Assembly: GCF_022458985.1 (NCBI RefSeq) | Contig: NC_061789.1 | Location: 20,750,357 to 20,814,356, forward strand | Origin: Mugil cephalus | Lineage: Eukaryota; Chordata; Actinopteri; Mugiliformes; Mugilidae | Reading direction: 5' to 3' | Length of the DNA stretch: 64,000 bases | Shown: piece after piece, positions 4,420-63,939 of the stretch | How the letters are laid out: the number at the start of each line of letters is the position of its first letter | Position numbering within the stretch: the stretch's first letter is position 1 | Program-made: the position numbers and the translations under genes | Notes under the pieces: generated by a model | Told to the model about the DNA's origin: nothing | Databases searched by the model: none | What the model saw: the letters and a program-made list of their open reading frames with translations, nothing else

Positions 4420-7009
4420 TCACACCTCGGGCACTGACCAGCTGTCATCTTTACTGTTGGTGTCCCGAGGCTTGAACAAAGCTTGATCCTCTGATTTCCC
4501 GACACAGCCAGCAGTTTCCTGTAGACAAGAAAATAATGAGCGCAGTGCAGCAAAGAAATAAGATAGATTTTGAATTCTGAAGATAAACCGCATCCATGTC
4601 AGATGAGTGAGCATAAAATGCTTTGTGGTGGAAAATGTGTACATGCACTAACAGGTCAGAAGTAAAATGTAACAGCATACGTCTGGCAGTGGAGAGTCAA
4701 TCTGGAAGTGTGTAGAAGGCTCCTGCTGATCAACACCTCTCTGACACAAACAGCACAGGATCCGCTTGAACGTCTTCCGCATCTCATTGTCCCGCAGAGA
4801 ATAGATGATAGGATTGACCAGAGAGTTGCACTCGGCTATAAACAGACAGAACTTCTCGTAGCGGTTGGCGTGGCTTTCTTTACCCAACAGTCCGTCCAAC
4901 AAGAGAGTCACGAGGCCGGGCGTCCAGCACAACACAAAGGCTCCTGCACAGATGTAGATTGTTGACAAGGACAGAAGAGTTCAACTGAACTTTGTCCATT
5001 AAAGCACTAATGTAAAGTGATACCAGATTACAGCTACCTCTAACCACACCTTGCATAAAATGACGATGAACTTGTTTGGAACATGTTTACTTCTAGTCGA
5101 TGAGTCAGGGGAGCAATAAAAGGTAAACTGAGGTGATAAGGGGTTTCAGTTTCAGCCTGACAGTGGAAAGGTACCTCAGAGCCGTGCGAAGCTCTCAGCT
5201 TCATGGATGATGGATCATGTCAGACTTATTTATATTCAATAATGCATCCGCCGTTCACAGAAAGACCAATAAAAGCTGCAAAACTGGTTTGTGGATGACG
5301 CAATCCAGACAGTTCCTCTTCGGTTAAAATGGCGGTATGAAATCAGGGAAATGCTTTTAAGTCTTCCTGACAAAAATACAAACATGGCTGCAGATAAACA
5401 ACAGGGTCTGTTCCAGAAAGAAGGCGTAACCAACAACAAACGGAGCCTGAACACCAAGTTGATGAACTCTGTGATGGGAAAAGTGAGTTTGTTGACTGGA
5501 AGAAAGATATTATCAGTAGAGATGAGTGCGCACACTATGGTGACGGGTAAACAAAGAAAAAAAATCTAGAAATACTGTATGAATGCAGAACATGACATCT
5601 TTAAAGACATTATTGTTCTCATCTGCCTGACCTTAACTTCCCATGCATCACATTAAACCTATTTGTATGTTCCAGGTATACTGCTTTGGATACAATTTAG
5701 ATGGCAGCAAGAGAAGATGGAACTGTGGATCCAACAGATGTTTACTAAAGGATCTGTGATTATAAAGTAATAATAACTTAAGGGATTTGAAGTAGAAAAA
5801 GTAGCTTGGTTTAAACTCAATATGTTTTAAAATATTTCAGTTTGGAATTCTTTCAAAACACTTGAAGCCTGTTTTCAAAAGTCACATTTAAATTATGTTT
5901 GGCCCCTTTATAGACTAAATGTAGTTTAAAAGTGCACCTCAGTCATCCATGTTCAGACACATTGTAAAAAAAAATAAATAAAATAAATCACAATACCACA
6001 AATGACTGATCACTGGCTGATATATGGGGGGGAACCTGACAGCGGTCTCAATGTATACATTTTATTCTGAGCTAAAGACACCTCTTTAATATCAGGTTGA
6101 TCATACCATTGTCCCTGTTAAAAAAAAAAAGGTCCTCAAACCTATTCCTGCACATATGTTCGATGTTCACTTAGAAATAGGAAATGAAACGAGACCGAGA
6201 AAGTTTTCTGTCAGAAATAAAAATAAAGAACGGAAAATGAGACTCTAGCTCACAAACAACTTCTCACCGAGGACCATGGAGATCGTCTTCATCAGGTTGA
6301 CGATAGTCTGGTTGTGTCGCATTTCTGAGGTGTGTTGAGACGTGTAGCGGCTCTGGTATTTCACATAGATGAAGATACGAGTGTACATGGCAACCATGAT
6401 GAAGAAAATGAGCAGGTTGAAAACTGCCCAGAATATGAGGAAGCGGCGGCTGTACAGGGGAGCGACAGTGGAGCAGTCGTCAAAATCACACTCACAGTTC
6501 CAAAATGTCGACGGCACCAGGCCCATGATGATACCCGAGGCCCAGATACAGATTATCAGCAGCACCACACGACGCTTTGTCATAGTGCTGTGCAGCTGCA
6601 TAGTCATGATGGTCTGGTGCCGTTCCACGGCAACTGCTAGGAGGTTTGCCACAGAGGCCGTTAGGCTGATGTCAATCAAAGCACCACGGATGTACCACTG
6701 CGTCTTGGTAAGCGTTCTAGTCCAGGGGCCTGTGTTCAACATCAAGTTGGTGTAAGCGATGCCTGCAAAAAGGTCTGCTGCAGCCATATTTGCCAGGAGA
6801 TAGTAGATGGGGAAGTGGAAGCGGTGGTTAATGAAGATGGCTATCATCACCATCAAGTTGGCCAAGACCACAATTAGACATACTGTCAAGCCCACTCCGA
6901 TGACCACAAAGTCCCGCATATTCCAGTCCACGCTGACATTCTTCCCCACCAGGTCATAGAAGAAGATGACACTGTGGCTGTAGTTGCACGCACTGCTGTC
7001 TGTGGCCAT
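4420..7009 (-). CDS. lpar2: lysophosphatidic acid receptor 2 (class A GPCR)
   Basis: Three coding exons, read from high to low coordinates: 7009-6268, 4943-4681 and 4518-4420, giving 367 aa. Human LPAR2 has 351 aa. ATG at 7009 is chosen because an acceptor (tctgtag) ends at 7012, and the in-frame alternative upstream is only GTG. The protein has seven hydrophobic segments, N-glycosylation sequons at N9 and N24, N51 (1.50), D79 (2.50), an E129-R130-H131 motif typical of LPA1-3 in place of DRY, NPIIY in TM7, and a CC.C cluster (likely palmitoylation) after TM7. The intron inside TM6 (before AFVLCWTPG) is the known conserved LPA1-3 intron. R108 (3.28) is kept but residue 109 (3.29) is Gly where LPA receptors normally have Gln. 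The last exon encodes a short tail ending SVPEV, unlike the human DSTL PDZ ligand. It is a plasma-membrane receptor expected to couple to Gi, Gq and G12/13. Confidence 0.92.
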
Positions 7010-7258
7010 AACTACAGACACAAAGCAGAAAGCTGAAGATATTTACAACAGCAAGCAACATCCAATAATTAATATGATATTCACAGGGATTCATATACTT
7101 TCACAAACTGAACAATAAAAAGCCAAAAAAAAAATATTATTTGTGATACTGTATTATAGTACTGAACTGTGACCTGTTTATAATGTAACCCAGTGTGGCT
7201 TGACGTGACCAGGAAGTTGTATGGATAACGATCAGAATGAAAGAAATAGGTCACTTAC

Positions 7259-13359: not shown

Positions 13360-22044
<8,685 letters not shown>

Positions 22045-48915: not shown

Positions 48916-51900
48916 ATGGCACCGAGTGGGCTGAAAGCGGTAGTCGGGGAAAGTAAGTGGCACATTTATTGTAACTTAACTGGTTTCAAAAGTTTATTAT
49001 AACTCAAATGTAGGCTATAGATAGTTTGTTTGGCTTTAACACTTACTTTGTTGCCGAATGATGGACTGACGATACTGTTTAACGCAAAACCCCGTTGGGG
49101 ACGTCCGTTCACCAAATGTTTCTTCCTGCTTCACTCTCAGTTAAAATGCTAACATATATCGAAGGAAATCAAGTCGTCGCCCTACAAGGCATGGGTAAAA
49201 AATAATGTTGTTGTAGTCCATGTGTTCGTAGAAAGACTTTGTGGGAGGAAGCTGTGGTTTGTTTCTCTCCGCAGCGATAGAAGTCCTTACAAACCATCGC
49301 GACATTTAGTGTTGGAAAATGTTGTGACAGTCCAAGTTACAGGCTAATGCCAGTTAGCTAAAGTAAAAGGAAGTTCTGTGTCTCTGCCTGTGATGAACCA
49401 AAAAAAGCTGGGACATTTACTCTAAAAGCGATTTAACAACAATTTCAAAGAAGATAATGACTTTCTACAGGTGTATTGTTTCGCGTAACATGTAACAAAT
49501 AACAAATACTGTCCTTTCAGTGACGTTATGGAATAATGTTGCGAGGGTTTTTCTTTCATGCAACTTCATTTGTAGCTGATGATACTTAATTTAGCCAATT
49601 TCACAAGGTTTACTGTGAAGACATATAGACTCATGCAGTGCTAGGGATCCTATACATTCTATGAGATATTTTAGCCTGAATTTATTATTCCTAATAACTT
49701 TAACAAGAGTTGAAGTTTTTCACTATGATTTAGTCCAGGGTAAGGAGATGGCTGAATTTGTACATTCTGTTATTGTGTTCAGTAGGACTATAGTGTGAAC
49801 ACACCTTGGCCATTTATACTGAAAGCATCAAGTTTATACTGGCAGTACAAGTAACTCTGCCCTTGTCTGTTTGAGAGATCAGTCAGCTGTTTGACTGTAC
49901 AAGACCTGTACCCTATTTATTTTGTGACTTTTGGAATGGACTTCTCCGTCTTTCCATTTCTTCACTTTTAAATGTCTACTCGTAAATAAATAAATAAACA
50001 TGTGAGAGATTTGAGTGAAGGGGGGCCACTCCCTTGTTGATGTTGAAAATGTCATCTAAAACTGACTGTCATTATTCATAAACTCAAGATCACATATACC
50101 ATGCGGTCACAAGCGAGACAGGCGTCAACACAAGTTTGCATACAGATATTTTGGTACAGTGCATAGAAACTGGCATGGTGTGGTGGCTGCGCGCTTCATT
50201 GTGGTGTGACCTATTACATTGCAAGCAGTCATCTTTTCCATTTTCCTGTATGGAAAAAAGTTGCAAGGAGACCTCTGTCATCAAAGGATGAAAATGTTAA
50301 AGCGAAAAATGGAAATTATTATTTCAATTATTTTAATTTCTTTCATAAGTGTATACAGTAAAAATAAAAACATTTAGAAAAAAATCAGTACACAGTAATT
50401 ACAAGAATAGTTAACCGGGGTATAAAGAGCGCAGGTGTTGTCTTTATAAAGTGCTGACTTAGCTAACTAGTATAGCAATGAATGTCTTAGGGACACAACT
50501 GTGACTTTGATGTAATCATACAAGGAAGTGGCACGAAGAGCACAATGACATAGTTTCAGAGAAACTGGAAAAATAATTTGGCTGCTGTGGTAAGCCATCT
50601 ATATTCTAATGAAAAAATAAATAAATAAGTAATGGATAGTGAAATAAGTCTTTCACCCTCAATGTAAAAGCATTCAGAGAAAACCTCAGTACCACACCTA
50701 GTTATTGAGTATGCAGACACAACTATGTTTTTGTCTGATCTTCATTTGCTGTAATATCAGCCATGTAACACCAGGAAGTTGCACCAAGCTGAGCTTGTTA
50801 ACACAAGTGCTACGTATGGGGACATTTGAAAAAGTTCCTGGTTTCTGCTTTTAAGAGTGTACTCACATATGTGATTACTACCTTGTCTATCATTGTGTTT
50901 ATTAATGAATTGTCACAACATCTCAGTTTGATTTTTCTCTTTACCCTGCCCATATTGTGGCTACATTTTAACCTACAAGACATCAGTATGGCACACTTCA
51001 TGAGCTGCTTAAATTCTGGCTTCAGGCAATGTAGATTTCTGTGAATCATTGCTATATTGATTTTTGTTTTTTGGACTTTCTTGGACCTAATGCTAAAATT
51101 ACAACACTTATTTACTATATACACTGTGTTTCCTCAGAGGTAACTGATACGGTCTTTATTCATATGTGCATGTTTTTCCATCTCTTCCACAGAAATCCTT
51201 AATGGGGTCATCAAGAGTGTAAAGAAGGATGGAGAATGGAAGGTAACAATCGTCCATTGAGCGTTAAGACATTCCCTAATAATCCCTACTTTGTCACACT
51301 GAAGCTGTATCCTCCGATTATCGTGTATTTTTCTTTAGGTTCTTATTGTGGATCACATGAGCATGCGGATTCTGTCCTCATGCTGCAAGATGTCTGACAT
51401 TTTGGCAGAGGGCGTGACCAGTAAGTAGAAGATAATTAATGGGCTTTTGTACTGTGTAGCACTGTTATAAATGAGAGACCAATTTACATTTTGCAAGGAT
51501 ATTTACAATATATGCTCTCATTTTTTTAAGGCATTAGGTACATTAGTGAAAACAAATGCATTCGAATTTAACAGAACTAAGTCCCCTTTTTCAATGTTAA
51601 CCTCCTTCACCACACCTGATTCAAATGGTCATCTCGTCATCAGGCTCTGCAGTGGCCTGATAAGGAGCCATTCATTTGAATGAGGTGTGTTGGAGGAGGG
51701 AAACATGGAAAACATGCAGGGCAGAATTGAGAAACACTGGGAAAACACAACACAGTTCAATGGCACTACAAACCACAACCTCCAACATGAAAGAGTCCCT
51801 CAGTTATTTTAAACGGTTAAATACAATAATCAACAATCATTTTTTTTTCTGTTGTACATGACATGGGTCAAGTCCGATTGTTGAGGATGAAGTGTCACAC

Positions 51901-54900
51901 ATCTCTTTTCTTTTTTCATTTTCCAGTTGTGGAGGACATCAATAAACGCAGGGAGCCCATCTCCAGTTTGGAGGCCATTTATTTGATTTCACCAGTGCAG
52001 AAGGTTAGCTGTTGCATTGTCCCCTGACTTCCCTCTTTTAATGTTCTGAAACTTGTGTGTTCAATAAGGTTTTGCATATTCTCAACATTTTAAACAGAAA
52101 TATCTTTTCTCTCACAGTCAGTTGAGGCGCTCATTAACGACTTCAAAGACATGGCCTTTACTTACAAAGCGGCACACATCTTCTTCACTGACAGTAAGAT
52201 TGCAATCATTAACCGTTTAATATAGGAAATGTATTTATTTGTTGTCCTCAGATGTACTGTGTGCAATGTTTATGTTTGAAGGTACAGAATATATAAAATA
52301 ATTAAATTAACCAATTCCCGTTACTTTTTTTTGTACTTCTACAGCATGCCCAGACAGTCTCTTCGCAGCGATAGGAAAATCCAGAGTTGCCAAGGTCGTC
52401 AAGACTTTAAAAGAGATCAGCGTTGCTTTCCTGCCATATGAGTCTCAGGTGGGTATTTTTCTTCTGTGAATCTAAATAGATTATTTCATTTACTTTTTTT
52501 TAACAATGTGTTGGTTTCCAACAGTGCCTCAATGAATTATAAGGCTCTAGTTACTAAATATGGCCTAACAACCAGTTGCCAGTGTTGCCTCCGTGGTATT
52601 TGGATTTGGACAAATAACATACAGGGTTTTTATCTGTGAATTTTGCTGTTGTGGGTGGAAACCATAGAAACCATAGTAAATAAAGATGAATGATCAGCTC
52701 CTCAAAAGTGAAACCAAATCAAGTAGAGCTCCGTCTGGTGACTGGCTGCAGTATAGGTCATAACCTCCACCCCTTCCATGTTAGTGTAAGAGACTTGGGA
52801 CTGAAACATGTCAAATCATTTATTTATGTATTTTTCATGGATAGTTTCTCTCATTTTACGTAGTTAATATATTATTGATGCATGTAATGTCATTTTTTTC
52901 TGATAAGTTGGAAGAAGATATTTCTAGAAAATATCTTAAACAGCACAGTTGTGAAACTTATATGACTAAATGGTAACAAATTTCAATCCCTCTCACCTCT
53001 GCAGGTATTCTCCCTGGATGACCCCACCTGCTTATACTCCTTCTACAGCACTAAGCCAAATGAACAAAAGCAAAAAACTATCGAAAATTTGGCAGAGCAG
53101 ATCGCAACCCTGTGTGACACCCTGAAGGAGTACCCTTCCGTTCGTTACCGCAAGTACGAATGCCTTGCTTTTGAATTTAGTTTATTGTGGAATTTACACG
53201 CAGATTCAAAGTTGTGTAACACTGTCTTTTAGGGGACCAGAGGAGAATGCTAAATTAGCTGAAGAGGTCTGCCATCGCCTTACTGCTCACAAAGCTGAAA
53301 ACCCAAGCATGGGAGAGGTTAGGACCAGCATATGTCACCACCCACACCAATTGTTGCTGTTATGTTCCCATATCAACACAGTTCTTTGTAAATGGGGAAA
53401 CTGGTTTTTACACTTAAATTTTCTCTGCTAAATCAACTTTTCCATATAAGATTATGAACTTCCTCTGGGAATCTACAGCTCTTCGCCTTCACACGTTGTG
53501 GACGTTTCTATGGCTTCTGGGTTTTCTGTTGAATTTCCTGTTGATTATCTTTTTCTCATGCCTTGCTGGATCTTTCCTGTTTTTCCATTCCTCTTCTCTG
53601 TCTTTCTTAGCTGGCATTTCCTTGCTCCTGAGTTGGGTTCTTAACAGGCATGTATTGCTATTCTCTTTTCACTTTCTACACACCTGAGGTGCGCATTCTG
53701 TTCAAGCATTCTCTGTATTTTTGCTTGCTGTACTTAACATGACAAGTTTGCTGAGGTGCTACATCAGGCGATGATACTGTAACCCATTTAAAACTTTCTG
53801 CACTGCCTGACAGATCTATAAAACATGCAAGAGCTTTATGATTCATGTGTTCTGTAGACTAGATCCTGATGTTCTGTGAAATAAATCAGTCATTTCAAAT
53901 CATTGAATAATAGCTATCATGTTTTTGTTTTAGGGTCCCGATAAGGCTCGATCTCAACTACTGATAGTTGATCGCGGGTTTGATCCCATCTCGCCTATCC
54001 TACATGAGTTGACCTTCCAAGCAATGGCTTACGATTTGCTTGATATCAAACAGGACATCTACACGTGAGTTGAACATCGTAATATAAATATTGCTGTACA
54101 TTTTGTTTGCTTGGTTCATGTACAGTTTTTGGCTTTATGTTTCTCTTGTCCATTCATGTGCACTCGATTTATATTAAGTTATCAGACAACTGGCATCGGG
54201 AACTCAAAGGAGAGAGAAGTGCTACTGGATGAAGACGATGAGCTCTGGGTTCAGCTCAGACACATGCACATCGCAGATGTCACGAAGTAAGTTTTCCAAG
54301 CTTCTTTTTCAACAAATTCTGATCAACTGCTTTTACCTGGTTAAAAATATATATGTCTTATCAAAAAAGAAATAGTGTGTTACTAATTACTAAATGATTC
54401 TAGTTATAATAAAATAATAATTCACATTAAAATCTATATTTTAAGTATTAAGCAGTTAATATGTGCTGTAGTGAGAAAGTAGTCCCAATAAACTTTAGAT
54501 TATTGCTTCTGTTAAAACATAGATTGTTTGTGAAATATTTTTAAATATGATAAATGTTTATAGTGTATACATTTTGTACATATGTGTAAAAAAATACATA
54601 GTTCATTTAAATTTGCTTGCATGTGGATTATCAGCATGGTATAATCCTGCATATATTTCCTGCACAAGGGAAACTCATTTCCTAAACTATTTTTTACAGG
54701 AAAGTGACCGATCTTCTTCGCACCTTTTGTGAGAGCAAAAGAATGTGCACTGACAATGTGAGTCTTTCCCTGTATTTGTATTACCCACTTGGTTCTTCGG
54801 TCATAACAGATGTCTGTGGTAGAGCATTGCTGTTCTTGCTTTTTTTGTGTCGGATCCAATTTCATAAAAATGTTTTGCATTTTAGGCCAACTTAAAAGAT

Positions 54901-55024
54901 CTTTCTCAGATGTTAAAGAAGATGCCGCAGTATCAGAAGGAGCTGAGCATGGTGAGGAAGATATTTTTGCAATGGAATATGTGTGTGTGTGTGTGTGTCT
55001 GTGTGTGTATATATATATATATCA

Positions 55025-55060
<36 letters not shown>

Positions 55061-58000
55061 ATACAGCTGCATTAATAATAACTCTTTTCACAATTGTCTT
55101 CACAGTACTCAACCCACTTGCACCTGGCTGAAGCCTGTATGAAGAAATTCAAAGCCTCTCTTGATAAACTTTGTGAGGTGGAGCAGGTCAGCAGTATAAA
55201 TAGAGTCATCTATTTTTTTCCTGGCCTGTGAATCAGAGGAAACTCTTAAATGAAGCACTGTTTGCTAATGCATTGTTGGAAAAACAACCTGTCACCCTGT
55301 AGCTTTTATATTTCAGGAGATCTTATGTTACATTGACACTAAATATCACAGAAAGAATGTCTGACATGGAATTATACCACTCATATTGCACACTAAGTGA
55401 CCTTAATGTCTTCATTTAGAGCTTCTCTGGGGTATGTCTCTGACATGGTCTGGTGTTATTTAATAGAGAATAATCGTAACATTGCATAAGAAGCTTGATA
55501 CCGGACATCAGCTGTCTACGGAAAAGCTGAAAAAGTTGATTACGGTGAACGTAAATGCCTTTAATAACACACATGTACGCTCTTAGTGCTGTGGAAATCC
55601 ATCCACCAGCCCCATCAATCCAAAGACCAGAATAGTGCCAAATCCCTGTGTTGTTTGTGTATGCCATTCATGCTTTGTCCCCCTGAGGGGATGTATTCTG
55701 CCACATTTAGTCCCACATGAAATGAGTCCCAAGCACGCCGGAAATGATAAGCTATGCATAGTCGTAGCATTATGTGATGCAAGTGTTAATGGGGCCTTTT
55801 TTATTAGGAAATCACTCGACAGCACTAATGGATTGTCAGCATGTCTGAAAGCTGCCTCTTTAAGCCAGTTGGCATGTTTTGGCTCTAAGGCGAAAAGTCT
55901 CATCCAAAGGGCAATAATTCTGTCAGCTGTCCTGCATTGTTTGGGCAACCCAGCAATGCAAATAGATGTCTGTCATATTGTAAACAAAATAATCTTTCAC
56001 TTGCTCATAAAGAGTTTTGTTGTTGATTGGTATTGACAAGACTTAGCAAGAGTCCTTAGAGAGAGACATCGTGGCCAGGATGGCATTAAAGCTGAAGGCA
56101 AGTGGCCAATATTAGCTGTTAATTGATTACAAATGCAACACTAGAAGTGTACTGTGCACCCTGGGATGGTGGTCTTTTTCTGTTTAAAACACAAATATCC
56201 TCATGCATATAAAGATGAGTCTACACTGCATGAAGCACCAGTGTAGTGTGTGGGTGGTGGTTTCACAGGAGTAACTGTGTCAGCTGGCTGTCACCTGACT
56301 TGAGTTGACGATTGAGATTTCGTAAGCATTTAATTGTTAACCACGAATGTCTTCCACAGGACCTGGCAATGGGAGCAAATGCAGAAGGGGAACCTTTGAA
56401 AGATGCCATGAAGAGCATTGTGCCTGTGCTCCTCAACAACGAGATTGAGATCTACGACAAAATCCGCATCATACTGCTGTACATATTCCACAAGAAAAAT
56501 GGTGTGCTCTTGTCACAGTTCTTTGTCATTTGACTCTTTTAATGTTTGTTTGCAAAAGCATACTTGTGTGTGGTTGTTGAGTAGATGAAGAAATTTGTTA
56601 TGGACTAAATAGAACAGCGTCAAATGTTATTGTAGCCTTCACATGTTTTACTTAAAGAACTGTACTGTTATCCATTAGGCATCGGAGAGGAGAACCTCAA
56701 TAAGCTCATCCAGCATGCGAACATACAGAACGACAGCAGCATTATCACCAACATGCAGAACTTGGGCTGTAATATTATATCTGGGGTAAATAACTTGAAA
56801 ACATTTTAGTTCCACTTACAGTGTTGTGGATGTCAGTGTTTCTTACATACATTACCCTGTTTGTTAGGGCCGCAACGCTGGGAAAACCCTGTTAGAGCGT
56901 AAGGAGCGCACAGAGAGCACGTACCAGCTGTCTAGATGGACACCCATCATCAAGGACATCATGGAGGTATTACTCGAGTGAAATTTCCAGTGTAGCTGGC
57001 TCATCTGTTAAGTTTTGCTTTTAGCTTTTCACGCTGTGTTTCTGTATCACAGAATGCCATAGATGACAAACTGGACAGAAAGCAGTGGCCTTTCATTACT
57101 GATCCTGTTCCCATCAACACGACTCAGACCACAGTCAGGTGGGTGCTAGAAACAGAAAATAATTATTTTCAAATAGAAGTGAATAACATTGAGCATCAGG
57201 CACCCCCACCATATAGCAATGACACTTCTTGATGGCAGCAGCCATCCCTGACAGGTTGCAACCCGACACAGACACATACACAAATGCTTTAGGAACAACT
57301 AAAAAAACATGAAGAACTGATTAAGTATCTGTGGGATCTCCACAGAGCCCAACCCTACCCCCGCCCTCCAAAAAGCAATGGAACTGGAAGGCCCCCACTA
57401 AAAACACACTGTTACCAGACACCACAGGACCCCCTCAGAATACCCATGTCCATTCTCTGATGAGTCACAACTGTTTTGGAGGCACAAGGGAGACCTACAC
57501 AGTGTTAGGCAGGTGGTTATGCCTAATATTAAAGCTTTTATCCCTGTAAATAAGCAGGAGCCAAGCTTTTGACAAAGTGAGTTGGAGCTGGAGTTCCCAG
57601 AATAATGATGGTGTTTACAACTACTAACCTGGGATCACTCATAATCTGCACAATGCACAATGTTTTTCTGCTTTTAAGTAAAGTGCACGATGAAGGATGA
57701 GTAGTCATGAATAGTAACACTAAAATATAAAATAGGCCATGACAGAGTTTAATGTGAGCTGTTGTGAAACAAAAATAACAAAAATCCAACTGAGTGCAAC
57801 CACAGTAGACAAATGTCTGACATGCTACCACTAGAATTAATCATATATAGGATTTTCACTTTCACATTTATTCATCTGTGTCAATTTTTTGACAGTAATT
57901 TTGGAAAAAGGAGAGCGTTGTTTTCAGTTGCGGTGTTTAGTGTCGTCTGAAATGTATATGTGACTGCTAACCAGCAGGTGTTGGTTTTAATAGTAGTTAC

Positions 58001-58376
58001 TTCTTGCTCAATCATTGTTTTTTAATTCTTTAACAGCAGTGCACGGTTTGGACACTGGCACAAAAATAAATCTCCGACAGAGTATCGCTCTGGCCCCCGG
58101 CTCATTATTTTTGTGATTGGCGGCATGTCACACTCAGAGATGCGTTCTGCTTATGAAGTCACTCGAGCCACTGATGGGAAATGGGAAGTCCTGATTGGTA
58201 AGCAATTGCTGTTGTAGAGATCAGCCGAGTTTCTTCCAAAAAAAGTTTCCTCTGTGTTAAGTGGAGCTATCATATTCTGCTTGACAGGGTCATCTCACAT
58301 CCTAACTCCAACCAGCTTCCTCAACGACCTGAAGAGTCTGGACCAAGTACCCAATCCCGATCTGTTAAATAAATAG
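48916..58376 (+). CDS. stxbp2: syntaxin-binding protein 2 (Munc18-2)
   Basis: Nineteen exons: 48916-48952, 51193-51242, 51339-51420, 51927-52003, 52118-52193, 52345-52448, 53005-53153, 53233-53317, 53934-54064, 54179-54286, 54700-54757, 54886-54951, 55106-55186, 56360-56501, 56679-56785, 56868-56966, 57053-57138, 58037-58197, 58288-58376. All phases agree and give 595 aa; human STXBP2 has 593. The protein starts [12 protein letters not shown] and keeps Sec1/Munc18 hallmarks: [68 protein letters not shown] and [20 protein letters not shown]2-type residues favour it over stxbp1. SM proteins bind syntaxins and template SNARE assembly; Munc18-2 acts in regulated secretion outside neurons. Long introns are 1 (2.2 kb), 13 (1.2 kb) and 17 (0.9 kb). 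A polyadenylation signal is at 58485-58490. Confidence 0.97.
54980..55060 (+). repeat. (TG)n/(TA)n microsatellite in stxbp2 intron 12
   Basis: Two TG runs separated by a TA run and a short ATCATT interruption. It lies 29 nt after the exon ending at 54951 and 45 nt before the next acceptor, so it fills most of this short intron. Confidence 0.9.
55187..56359 (+). other. stxbp2: stxbp2 intron 13
   Basis: Intron of 1.17 kb between the exons ending VEQ and starting DLAMG. It contains an open frame (55635-56036) but no similarity to a known protein, and no splice structure supports an extra exon. Confidence 0.6.
57330..57545 (+). repeat. teleost interspersed repeat in stxbp2 intron 17
   Basis: Contains TGATGAGTCACAACTGTTTT and, a little later, GTTAGGCAGGTGGTTATGCC, phrases found together in a common fish dispersed repeat. 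The copy is degenerate and its class is unknown. Confidence 0.45.
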
Positions 58377-60322
58377 ACCTTCAGCAGGGAAGATCCCACT
58401 GGAAGGATTTAGTCTTTCTTTTGAGATGGTTGTTTGCTGTATAGCATCTTCCAACATCTGAAGTGTGACGTGAAGAGAAACTTAAATAAACTGTAGCCAT
58501 TTGTGATTAATTATTTTATTTAGAATGGTCTTTTTATTGTGAATCGGGTTCTGTATACTGCTGTGATTGACATATTTAATTAGACATTGATAATATATTG
58601 ATTATTATGCTATTGTGATTCTACTGTTCTGGTTCAGATTGTATTTTTGTTGCTATTGTTTGCTTTTGTTCTCAGAAATTCCTGCAAAACTAGACTCATC
58701 TCACATCGAAGGCTGTATTTAAGAATAGAATGGAAGGTTGGAAGAAGCTCTGTAGAAGTATATATTGCATATTCAGTGACAGTAAAGCAGATAACATTTC
58801 TCTGTTGGTACCTTTTTTTCTGTCATCTGGGAAATTTCATCTCGGACAAAATGTCTAAACTGCTGTGTTATTAACTCTTGCTCATTTATCATGTACTTGA
58901 ATGTATTGCTGCAAGCAAGTGTGGTGGTTGTTTATTTTTCTTAAAAATGAGTAATAAAAGAAACATAATATTCACTTTAAATTGAGTTTTGTGCTTGTCT
59001 TTCAGTCCGTGTAAATGATTTATTATTTAAATGTGTTGAAATAGTTCAACTCGCATGCTTCTGTGTTTCACAGTTTTCATAACAAAGTCATGAAAAAATG
59101 AGTCCAACCAAAGGCTCCAGAGATCTTTTCTGAAAGCTAGCTCAACCACATTTGATATCCCAACATTATTCTCCTCCTGAACTCTAAGGTAGTTACAATA
59201 ACTTAAATTTACTATTTGTGCAATATCACTCAAGTGCAATATGTTCTATATTACAATGTCACTCTTAATTTAATTGATGCTTCACAATGGTTATTGCCGT
59301 ACCAATTCTGCTATTTTACTTTTTTCTTTTTTACATTTTTTACATATTGTTTTTTTATTATTATTATTTCATATTTACCACCATTCGTCTCACTCTTCTG
59401 TTACTGGCAGCAGGCCATTGCACACAATATGCTGCTTTTGCCCACCCACTGTGATTGTGATTTTATTCTCTTGCTTTTTATTTTTATGTGCCGCTCTTTG
59501 ACCTCCTAATTGCCCCTCAGGGATAAATACATTTTTTTCTGATTCTGATGGTCAAATATTTTTGTCTTTGAGAAACAACTCAAATTAATTCAGATTAATC
59601 TGTTGGCTAGCTTGGTTATCCTCTGTGCTTTCTATTTACAAACCAATTTATAGTTATATTTAGAAGTATATCATTGAAAACTTGAGTTTTTTTATCTTCA
59701 CAGTTCACAGCTCAGTTTTTACTCCATATTGTAATACAAAGATGATTTCATCAATTTTTTTTTCAGTGTGCATCCTTCCTCATTTTGTGGTTTTCTTCCT
59801 CACAGGCAAATGTTCAGTACCGATTTAAAAAACATATTTATCATACTGATAGGTTCATCACATTAGTGACAGTTTTGCTGATCCCACAACCTGAGCATAT
59901 GCATTTTCACCATATAATGACAATGTGGTGGCATCTAAATGCAAACATGAACTTTAAGTAAAGTGTGAGGTCAAAAGGGAGAGCATTACACCCGCTACTG
60001 AAAAAGATCATCCCTCTCCATGCTGAGGATTATGTTTTCATCTGGGATTACAGATGGTAATATCGAGAACGGGGCTCTGGTCTTAATGGCTATGGGTTAA
60101 TACACGGGACTTAACTCTATTTAAAAGCCTTCTACCCAGCCATATCCAGACTTTATTTCGCATACCATTTATCAGTATCATCAGTTCCATTATATACAGT
60201 TATGTCGAAGAAGTACTGAATATATTCTTCTCCAATAACAAGAGCTGTAACACTGCTTTACAGTTTATTTATTTTGCAGTCTGAGGATTTTTACTTATTT
60301 TTATTTTTTGTATCATTTTTCA
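58377..60322. other. stxbp2 3' UTR and intergenic DNA before the GoLoco gene
   Basis: AT-rich, with polyadenylation signals at 58485-58490 and near 58952. It holds a LINE-like 3' end at about 59195-59560 and no credible coding exon. The promoter of the downstream gene must lie in the last part but shows no diagnostic motif. Confidence 0.45.
59195..59560 (+). repeat. LINE-like 3' end fragment
   Basis: T-rich sequence followed by GGCAGCAGGCCATTGCACA and an ending with CCTAATTGCCCCTCAGGGAT, then AAATACA. This closing phrase is typical of teleost non-LTR retrotransposon 3' UTRs. Confidence 0.5.
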
Positions 60323-62072
60323 ATGGCAGCTACCGGAGAAGACTCAAAACTTGAAGCAACTGACATTGTACTGGTAAGATTGTCATATTGATTTTTAGTT
60401 AAAAATATTTAGTTGGAAATGTATAATGGTAAAATGGGTATTTATTAATTTTTAAAGATTTCATACAGAATTGTATCTTAATTCTCCAAAGTATGATGTA
60501 AACATGTTTGAGGCTCTATTCAAAATCCCAGACAAGTTTGAAATTGTTGCACAGTTTGAGTTTGACACATTTTTAGGTCTCAAAAAGAAGACATGACATC
60601 TGGTCACCCTACATATTGTTTATGCTTGTCCATAGTAGGTAAATTGTCGATGTTGTTGATGCCATTTTATTTTGATATTATATTACATCACATACATATT
60701 TTACATTGTGCCCACCACTTTTTCCGAGCCTGAGATATGGAGACCTGCAGTTAGGAATAATCATTTTTTAAACTAAGATTTACATTTGTTCAGGAACAAT
60801 GAGACTGTGTATAATTTGCGATACATCAGGCTGCTTGCTTCTTACATCCAATTCTCAACAGGAATCTCCAGAACAGGAGCAGATTCTAAACATACTGAGT
60901 CGCTCACAGCGTGGACGAATGGATGAACAGTGCTGCACTTTGAGTCCTGCTAAGACCGCACAAATAAAAACTACACCTACGGGTTGGGGCAGCACAAATA
61001 CAACATGTCATTTGTTTTATTTGTTATTTGGCAAGGTGATGATTGATGATTTCCCTCCTGCTCCACACAGACTCAAGCAAGGAGAAATCATCCCATAATT
61101 CTGACAGAAAAAATGGACAACACCTAGACCCACGGGTGTCATTGCCTGGATTTAACTACCAGGTACTAGACTATAGATAACAAATGTTGAGTCCATGCAT
61201 GCACCTGTAGAGGGGCATAATGAATTAATAAACAACATCTACTCGAAGGTATGACTTGTTTTCTCAGGAACCTGGAAGTAATAACCACCACGGCTCTGCA
61301 CCTCAGATCTCTTTGACTGAGAGTACTCCAGAGAGAAACAGGAGGCTTCTGGGGGTGCCAGGACACGAATTACCTGTTCCCTCTGACCGTGCCCGCTCCA
61401 ATTCCATAAAGGTCAGTTTGGTTCCGCTTGGTCATTGTCATGGCTGTGTTATGACAGATTTCTTCTACAGACAGGTTTGATATATTAATCATTTTAACCA
61501 CAAACAGGAAGAAACACATGAGGAACAGCAAAGGTTTCTGAATATGATCACCCAAGGGCAGCGTGGACGTATGGACGATCAGAGCTGCTCCTTGGATCCT
61601 AGCAGGAGTGCTCCTTGCACACCCAAACACACCGATAGAAAGTCTGCTTCACTGAACACAGGTAAATATACTGAATGGGTACGATAAATGGATAGATCGA
61701 TCGATTGATTGATCCGACTTTCTTAACAGGGAGGAAAGGATTTTATATTTAGCATTTCTTTCTGACAGAGCCAGGTTTAGACGCTGTGTTATTTAATGTT
61801 GTCAATGTGTCTTACCAGATTCTGAAATGCTCTTCAACCTACTGGCCAGCACTCAGAGTCAGCGGCTAGATGACCAGCGAGTCTCTCTTCCATCATTACC
61901 TGGATTACAGAAGGAAAAAAACACTTCTGATGGAGATTCGAGCTTCTTGTATAACATGGTCTCCCAAGCCCAGGTTGGTACTTTCCTTTTTCAAAGAACA
62001 AAAAAATAGTTGTTTAAATATAAAGTGCTAAAAATACTGTTGTGATGTTGCATAAACATTAGCCTAGAAATA

Positions 62073-62103
<31 letters not shown>

Positions 62104-63939
62104 AATACTTTGTATGTATTAGTATCAGTCATATATTTACTTGAAGCACTTTGAGTGTTTCATTTTTTTTATTTTTAGATGGTCAGCCCTTTAAGCTTGT
62201 GTTCATGTCAAAACAGTTCACATGAGCCAGTTTTCACATATTTTGATCTTCTAACCAAACGTTTGTGCAGTGTATATGATGGTGAAAATTGCTGTGCTAA
62301 TGTATTTTCAGGGTTCAAGAATGGAGGACCAAAGGTGTTCGCTACCTCCAACCCCTTCACGGTCAACCTCCTTAAGTCCCAGCTCAGACACAGAACGACC
62401 AAAGAGTAAAGATAAAACATCAGAAAAACAGGCATGTTAAGTTATTTTTCTCCAGGTTAAAATCAAATAACAAATCCTCATTTGAATCACTGAAAATTTA
62501 TAGACGGCCCAATAATGTAAGAATGTCATTTATATTGGTAATTATAATGAACTAAATAGGTACTTTTTCTGATCTAGGTCGTGACTGCGAGTGAACAGGA
62601 AGATTTTTTTAACTTAATGAGTCATTCACAGCGTGGCCGCATGGATGAACAACGATGCGTCTTAAGTGTTACTCCCCAGTCAACACCCAAACATCAGCTC
62701 AGTCAGAACACACAGCCTCAAGGTAAGAACGCAAGCAGAATGTATGCCTCCTGATTTTTACATTGAAGGTTTGCTCCTGCATGTAGAAATATTAAAATAA
62801 ATAAATAAATAAAAATGTATATTTAAAGCTAATATTTTATTTTTACCCAACCCACGGCCAGATTCTGAAAATTTCTTCAGTTTGCTGGCCAACTCACAGG
62901 GCCGACGCATTGACGACCAAAGAGTGACTCTTCCTTCATTACCAGGCATTCAGAATGGAGGGACCACATCATCGTCAACGTCAGCTGCTGCTGAGATGGA
63001 TGCAAGATACTTGTGTTACATGGTTTCCAAAGTCCAGGTGAACGCATACATTCAGTTATACAGTCTATCCACTTAAAAAAATTTCTTATTTTGATCTTCA
63101 ATGTGCAGACTATGTTCCACAACAGTTCCAAATGATGATTTGAATCAATAGTACAACAATGAATCATGTTTTCCTCCCACAGGGCTCTAGGATGGATGAA
63201 CAGAGATGTTCTGCACCACAAATATCCCAGAATCTCGGTACCCCATCCCCCCAGAGGAAAGACCATCTCAATTCAGACACATCTCTCCGGAGGTCTGCCT
63301 CCTTAAACCGTAGTAAAACTGATGACCACCGGCAGGTCAGATGTCATGCTGCACATTACTCAGCTTACAGTTTTACCAGTACTTTTCCCGTTCCGTAATC
63401 CTATATTTTTCAGTAAGCCATTAAAATGACGTTAGTGACGGGTAGGAAGGCTCAACCTCCACAGTTTTTCAAAAATAAAAAACTGTGGTTGTTTTATTCT
63501 GTCTCAAGTTGTTTGTTACTTCTCAATTCTTTTATTTCTTCAAACATTTTCAGGAGACGTCTGAAGCGGAGCAGGAGCAGTTCCTTCAAATGATCAGTCA
63601 TGCACAAAGTGGCCGTATGGACGAGCAGCGTTGCTCTTTACAACCCAGCAGAAGCACATCTGCGACCCCCACACACAATGGAAGTGCTTTAAATAATGTA
63701 CCCACAGGTCAGAAAGACACAGAAGGCACAGTGTTAAATATGCTTTCCGTCTTCGAGATGTCAAAAATAGCTGTTGATTCTCTGTAACAGGTGCAGAAGC
63801 TAATGCGTTCTTCAACACGATTGCCTCCAGTCAAGGAGGACGGCTCGATGATCAGCGCTTTACACTTCCTACGTTGCCGGGGATAGGTGGAAATTCTGAG
63901 GGGAAAAAAAATGCTCGAAGTACAATGGCTAAAATCCCA
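60323..63939 (+). CDS. pcp2: pcp2-like multi-GoLoco protein (3' end beyond window)
   Basis: Twelve exons in continuous phase, 538 aa so far: 60323-60373 (start MAATGEDSK), A1 60862-60982, B1 61071-61162, C1 61268-61411, A2 61508-61661, B2 61819-61973, C2 62312-62431, A3 62578-62722, B3 62862-63037, C3 63183-63335, A4 63554-63707, B4 63791-63939. Each A exon carries a GoLoco such as [19 protein letters not shown] exons carry [17 protein letters not shown], ending in LPSLPG, and B2 and B3 also hold the helix of the next motif, completed in C (GSRMEDQRC). GoLoco motifs bind GDP-loaded Galpha-i/o and block nucleotide release. No TPR repeats precede them, which argues against gpsm1/gpsm2, and the position beside stxbp2 matches human PCP2. 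The ATG at 60323 is inferred. The C2 exon uses a GC donor. Motifs in the first cassette are degenerate. Confidence 0.85.
62070..62091 (+). repeat. (TA)n microsatellite
   Basis: An uninterrupted TA run followed by poly-T in the intron between B2 and C2 of the GoLoco gene. Confidence 0.85.

Follow-up and report, generated by a model that had tools for sequence, protein, structure and literature searches.

A tandemly repeated three-exon GoLoco cassette beside STXBP2 in Mugil cephalus

PCP2 (Purkinje cell protein 2, or L7) has two GoLoco motifs. It works in mouse Purkinje cells and in rod bipolar cells (PMC6585000, PMC11269129), and the size of its gene is given as nearly constant in vertebrates, at 2137 bp in human, 2174 bp in mouse and 2821 bp in anole (PMC6792250). 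Longer arrays are found in AGS3 and LGN, which combine an N-terminal TPR domain with four GoLoco motifs and whose four-motif domains are described as binding Galpha-i3-GDP in a 1:4 ratio (PMC12151148). Gpsm2 has similarly been described as loading several Galpha-t-GDP (PMC9581579). The GoLoco content of such proteins is reported to shift in evolution, as in sea urchin AGS (PMC11666239).

The window considered here is a stretch of 64,000 nucleotides from Mugil cephalus (contig NC_061789.1, positions 20,750,357 to 20,814,356 of the forward strand). On its plus strand, between 60323 and 63939, we modelled 12 coding exons, namely a putative first exon, E0, followed by A1 B1 C1 A2 B2 C2 A3 B3 C3 A4 B4. 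Joined by phase-compatible splicing, they give a reading frame without a stop over 538 codons; E0 to B4 spans 3617 bp, and no stop is reached by the window end (64000), where the gene is cut. An earlier note on this DNA had proposed eleven exons in this order between 60862 and 63939, with A running from phase 0 to 1, B from 1 to 0 and C from 0 to 0, and had taken the array to be truncated by the window end. The joined frame, which runs open past B4, bears out all of these points. The GoLoco motifs of C2 and C3 are indeed split, as had also been proposed, with the helix half closing the B exon and the Arg-finger half opening the C exon. An in-frame stop lies 75 nt upstream of the ATG in E0, which is probably the first coding exon and the one that holds the start codon. 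The features are as follows.

51144-58379, plus strand: stxbp2, hand-joined pieces, last exon ending at 58379; best match STXBP2 chain 4cca (human-type)
60323..60373, plus strand: E0, putative first coding exon; phase 0 to 0; ATG; donor ctg/GTAAGA
60862..60982, plus strand: exon A1, GoLoco with Cys at the arginine finger; Pfam 21.0 bits, E 0.00023; phase 0 to 1
61071..61162, plus strand: exon B1, decayed B, GoLoco not recognisable; no Pfam match; best unit match B2
61268..61411, plus strand: exon C1, decayed C, GoLoco core gone; no Pfam match; best unit match C3
61508..61661, plus strand: exon A2, GoLoco with Ser at the arginine finger; Pfam 20.0 bits, E 0.00046
61819..61973, plus strand: exon B2, complete GoLoco and first half of the C2 GoLoco; Pfam 35.6 bits
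62312..62431, plus strand: exon C2, second half of the C2 GoLoco; GC donor; Pfam 37.5 bits across the B2/C2 junction
62578..62722, plus strand: exon A3, complete GoLoco; Pfam 34.7 bits
62862..63037, plus strand: exon B3, complete GoLoco and first half of the C3 GoLoco; Pfam 43.0 bits
63183..63335, plus strand: exon C3, second half of the C3 GoLoco; Pfam 32.2 bits across the B3/C3 junction
63554..63707, plus strand: exon A4, complete GoLoco; Pfam 35.9 bits
63791..63939, plus strand: exon B4, complete GoLoco; gene continues beyond the window; Pfam 26.6 bits

The GoLoco array is real. Searched with the whole 538-residue protein, the Pfam GoLoco family (PF02188) is matched over nine stretches with 199 bits (E 4.6e-60) and is the only Pfam family above chance, the next being DRY_EERY at 0.12. 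When the units were scanned singly against the curated cut-off of 25.1 bits, seven of the eleven exceeded it (B2, C2, A3, B3, C3, A4 and B4), A1 and A2 fell below it, and B1 and C1 gave no match. Across the nine recognisable units three motif columns, Q13, R16 and Q20, do not vary. The Asp/Glu-Gln-Arg end, which carries the GDP-contacting arginine, keeps that residue in seven of the nine, the exceptions being A1 (Cys) and A2 (Ser). The eleven GoLoco-derived units of the earlier note thus come down to nine that are recognisable, of which seven are canonical. For the remaining two there are weak traces, DPRVSLP in B1 against DQRVSLP in B2 (24 of 1000 shuffles as good) and SAPQIS common to C1 and C3, equally far into the exon in both (10 of 1000 shuffles), both values being uncorrected for the ten comparisons per unit.

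The decay is clustered at the 5' end, at 60862-61661 (A1, B1, C1 and A2), and the seven units from B2 onwards are canonical.

That units of the same letter group together, a point on which the earlier note had staked its case in advance, is what both the labelings and the tree give, the latter on weak branches. In local alignments the observed same-letter difference was matched by 9 of 20000 permutations for the eleven units, and 18 of 20000 were as good for nine units. Full enumeration found 4 of 11550 labelings as good for the eleven units, a figure in which every partition appears twice, A and B being equal in size at four members; for the nine units that remain without B1 and C1 it found 1 of 1260. 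A tree of these nine units with three reference motifs, two from GPSM2 and one from sea urchin, requires two letter changes, the minimum possible, and none of 200 shuffles was as low. Support in the tree is weak: no branch is starred, and the values are 58/61 for A and 82/80 for C. The two GPSM2 motifs both join the B side, so that B then forms no clade; B alone was not rejected (p-AU 0.465).

Together with the ordered letters and the constant phases, this grouping supports tandem duplication of a three-exon block, which would have taken place several times. The earlier note had left the block as A-B-C or B-C-A, and here its claim goes no further; the closest pairs by local alignment differ by letter (A2-A4, B2-B3 and C2-C3), so neither the order of the duplications nor the choice between the two blocks can be read from them.

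The duplications look old. Introns compared between cassettes share only short plus-strand matches of 9-36 bases, which suggests considerable age, and the best match by E-value is 13 bases (E 0.007) between the B2-C2 and B3-C3 introns, at unlike positions. Intron homology between cassettes, with short matches at most, was dropped as a candidate. The four A copies have 67-75% identity to A1 across 75 bases, and in 220 same-letter codon comparisons among the nine units the differences at codon positions 1, 2 and 3 number 70, 37 and 122. This preference for the third position makes the copies look as if they have been kept as protein.

We favour, with a probability of about three in four, the reading that this is a GoLoco protein from the PCP2/GPSM group, lacking a TPR domain, in which the A-B-C block was duplicated so long ago that the introns no longer match, and which may buffer or scaffold inactive Gi/o subunits in a multivalent manner. 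If the exons are joined in a single mRNA, the product would be a chain, probably disordered, that carries at least seven canonical GoLoco motifs. The seven motifs are 39-69 residues apart; the two motifs of the GPSM2 chain 4jhr are closer, with 34 residues between them. The linkers amount to 340 residues, 54% of them S/T/P/N/Q/G and 12% I/L/V/F/M/W/Y. Candidate phosphorylation sites in the linkers were dropped, there being no excess over shuffles ([RK][RK]x[ST], 0 against a shuffle mean of 1.64; Rxx[ST], 8 against 8.99).

Given this spacing and the 1:4 binding of AGS3 and LGN, there could be room on the chain for seven or more Galpha-i/o-GDP subunits. The earlier note had envisaged a protein able to bind many Galpha-i/o subunits, and this is plausible for seven units but not for eleven, since the arginine is gone in A1 and A2 and the motif is lost in B1 and C1. 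Such a protein would probably act as a multivalent scaffold or inhibitor for Galpha-i/o-GDP. Against simple GDI action, in which bound Galpha-i/o would release its GDP more slowly, stands the contrary effect reported for Pcp2, a stimulation of GDP release from Galpha-o (PMC6585000). A retina-specific PCP2 has been credited with faster responses of rod bipolar cells (PMC11269129), which suggests where expression of the present gene might be sought.

The earlier note had also called the locus stxbp2-adjacent, and the upstream neighbour is STXBP2, its pieces scoring 787.3 bits against the STXBP2 chain 4cca compared with 702.8 bits for the best STXBP1 chain. The array gene adjoins STXBP2 and no TPR was found where one was sought, but it is far longer than PCP2. 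In human, PCP2 lies on the opposite strand and flanks STXBP2 at its other end, for which reason the synteny is suggestive only. Motif 2 of PCP2 scores best against the B units (mean 81.0, compared with 35.8 for A and 46.5 for C) and motif 1 singles out no letter (A 52.8, B 57.3, C 52.5); the likeness is a lead and not a test. We infer kinship to PCP2. A figure legend on the resistin neighbourhood includes Pcp2 and Stxbp2 among its genes, and the same paper reports that this neighbourhood was not found to be conserved in fish (PMC4467842).

Two other genes were noted in the window, both on the minus strand. At 4648-7042 there is a lysophosphatidic acid receptor gene of at least two exons (7tm_1), whose best solved matches are LPAR1 and, over a shorter chain, LPAR2. 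A BET-family bromodomain gene, presumably brd4, lies at 13360-20718; Pfam finds two bromodomain pieces and a BET domain, and there are long glutamine-rich stretches at 13360-16432.

The degraded units A1, B1, C1 and A2 would suit a decaying pseudogene or an assembly artefact, which we nevertheless regard as the most improbable account of the locus. The 12-exon frame is open with matching phases, codon differences concentrate at position 3, and A copies that are only 67-75% identical to A1 over those 75 bases are not assembly duplicates. It is also very unlikely that the gene is a GPSM1 or GPSM2 paralogue with its N-terminal TPR domain encoded in upstream exons. In favour of that idea, motifs of GPSM2 are the sole convincing matches among solved structures: GPSM2 accounts for all four distinct sequences among the solved chains matched, for three of three with a B2+C2 query and for four of five in a further search, in which the fifth, centrin-2 (E 3.5), is at chance level. 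Against it, a TPR was found neither by profile in the 538 residues nor in any of ten stretches without stop codons, chosen by eye, from the interval between stxbp2 and E0, stxbp2 is directly upstream, and the stop ahead of the ATG is in frame. As a refinement of the preferred reading, the cassette could be an old triple duplicated as a block, its classes A, B and C going back to motifs 1, 2 and 3 in a GPSM-like GoLoco domain of an ancestor; we hold this tentatively, the balance being somewhat against it. Motif 1 of sea urchin AGS (letters from PMC11666239) is nearest to A (mean 53.5, compared with 43.3 for B and 46.5 for C), and when B2+C2 was the query, the GPSM2 motif that matched better of the two did so over the C2 part. 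Human GPSM2 motif 2 is nearest to B (75.3, compared with 42.2 for A and 31.5 for C), likewise as a lead. The third GPSM2 motif, by contrast, has no preference for C (ungapped, B 53.7 and C 53.0), the tree places both GPSM2 motifs with B, and the motif numbering of the GPSM2 chains is provisional.

Also compatible with the preferred reading, though doubtful, is an exon menu, in which alternative splicing would vary the number of blocks and so set the Galpha valency of each isoform. By phase the A-B pair, C alone and the whole A-B-C block are all frame-neutral, and the donors of A1 (-1.5), B1 (-0.4) and B4 (0.2) have the lowest scores among the twelve, on a scale built on approximate base frequencies, a dependence that weakens the argument. 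At A1 there is an alternative in-phase GC site at 61030 (3.8 compared with -1.5), which would leave an intron of 40 bases only. The C2 exon ends in our model at a GC donor (62432-62433, score 5.8) that otherwise fits the consensus and is the sole in-phase GT or GC above -3 ahead of the stop at 62438; another candidate for the exon end, a GT site, was rejected as out of phase. The low-scoring A1 and B1 donors, the decayed first cassette and the need for this GC donor speak against the preferred reading. Against the exon menu, skipping C alone would waste a half-motif, since the C motif is split over B and C. A bolder extension makes the gene the PCP2 of this lineage and a modular Galpha sponge, its graded Gi/o-GDP valency produced by duplication of the A-B-C block and block splicing, with the two-motif mammalian PCP2 a reduced form of a longer ancestor. 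We think this unlikely.

Whatever the fate of these extensions, the GoLoco family itself is known, and what is new here is the block-repeated arrangement of its exons with at least seven canonical motifs, compared with four in the best-known relatives. We found no description of a many-GoLoco or PCP2 gene in fish in the literature searched, whose accessible part leaves most subscription journals outside its coverage. Among viral contigs, 13 stretches fitted a search pattern and none was confirmed as a relative. Valency is free to vary among GoLoco proteins; LGN and AGS3 are described as holding four Galpha-i3-GDP at once (PMC12151148). A block-repeated gene in which some motifs have decayed and others have been kept would allow the effect of the number of sites to be asked about in PCP2 neurons, and the array would also hint at the origin of the short mammalian PCP2. 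If every fish has the array, the gene belongs to the ordinary members of the family and has simply been overlooked. It may already be present in automatic genome annotation.

Compared with known systems, the two motifs of PCP2 stand against at least seven canonical ones in the array gene, and the order and strand relative to STXBP2 are unlike the arrangement of human PCP2. PCP2 resembles the array gene in being a GoLoco protein (PMC6792250) and in being named in the STXBP2/resistin neighbourhood (PMC4467842). Its gene occupies 2137-2821 bp (PMC6792250), whereas the array gene already covers 3617 bp from E0 to B4. Sea urchin AGS shares a motif 1 that is nearest to the A units; it is a TPR-containing protein with four motifs, and the available text on it mentions no three-exon repeat (PMC11666239). 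GPSM2/LGN and GPSM1/AGS3 carry tandem GoLoco motifs of the same kind, but as a TPR domain with four motifs (PMC12151148), whereas the array gene combines the absence of a TPR where tested with a three-exon repeat and a larger number of motifs.
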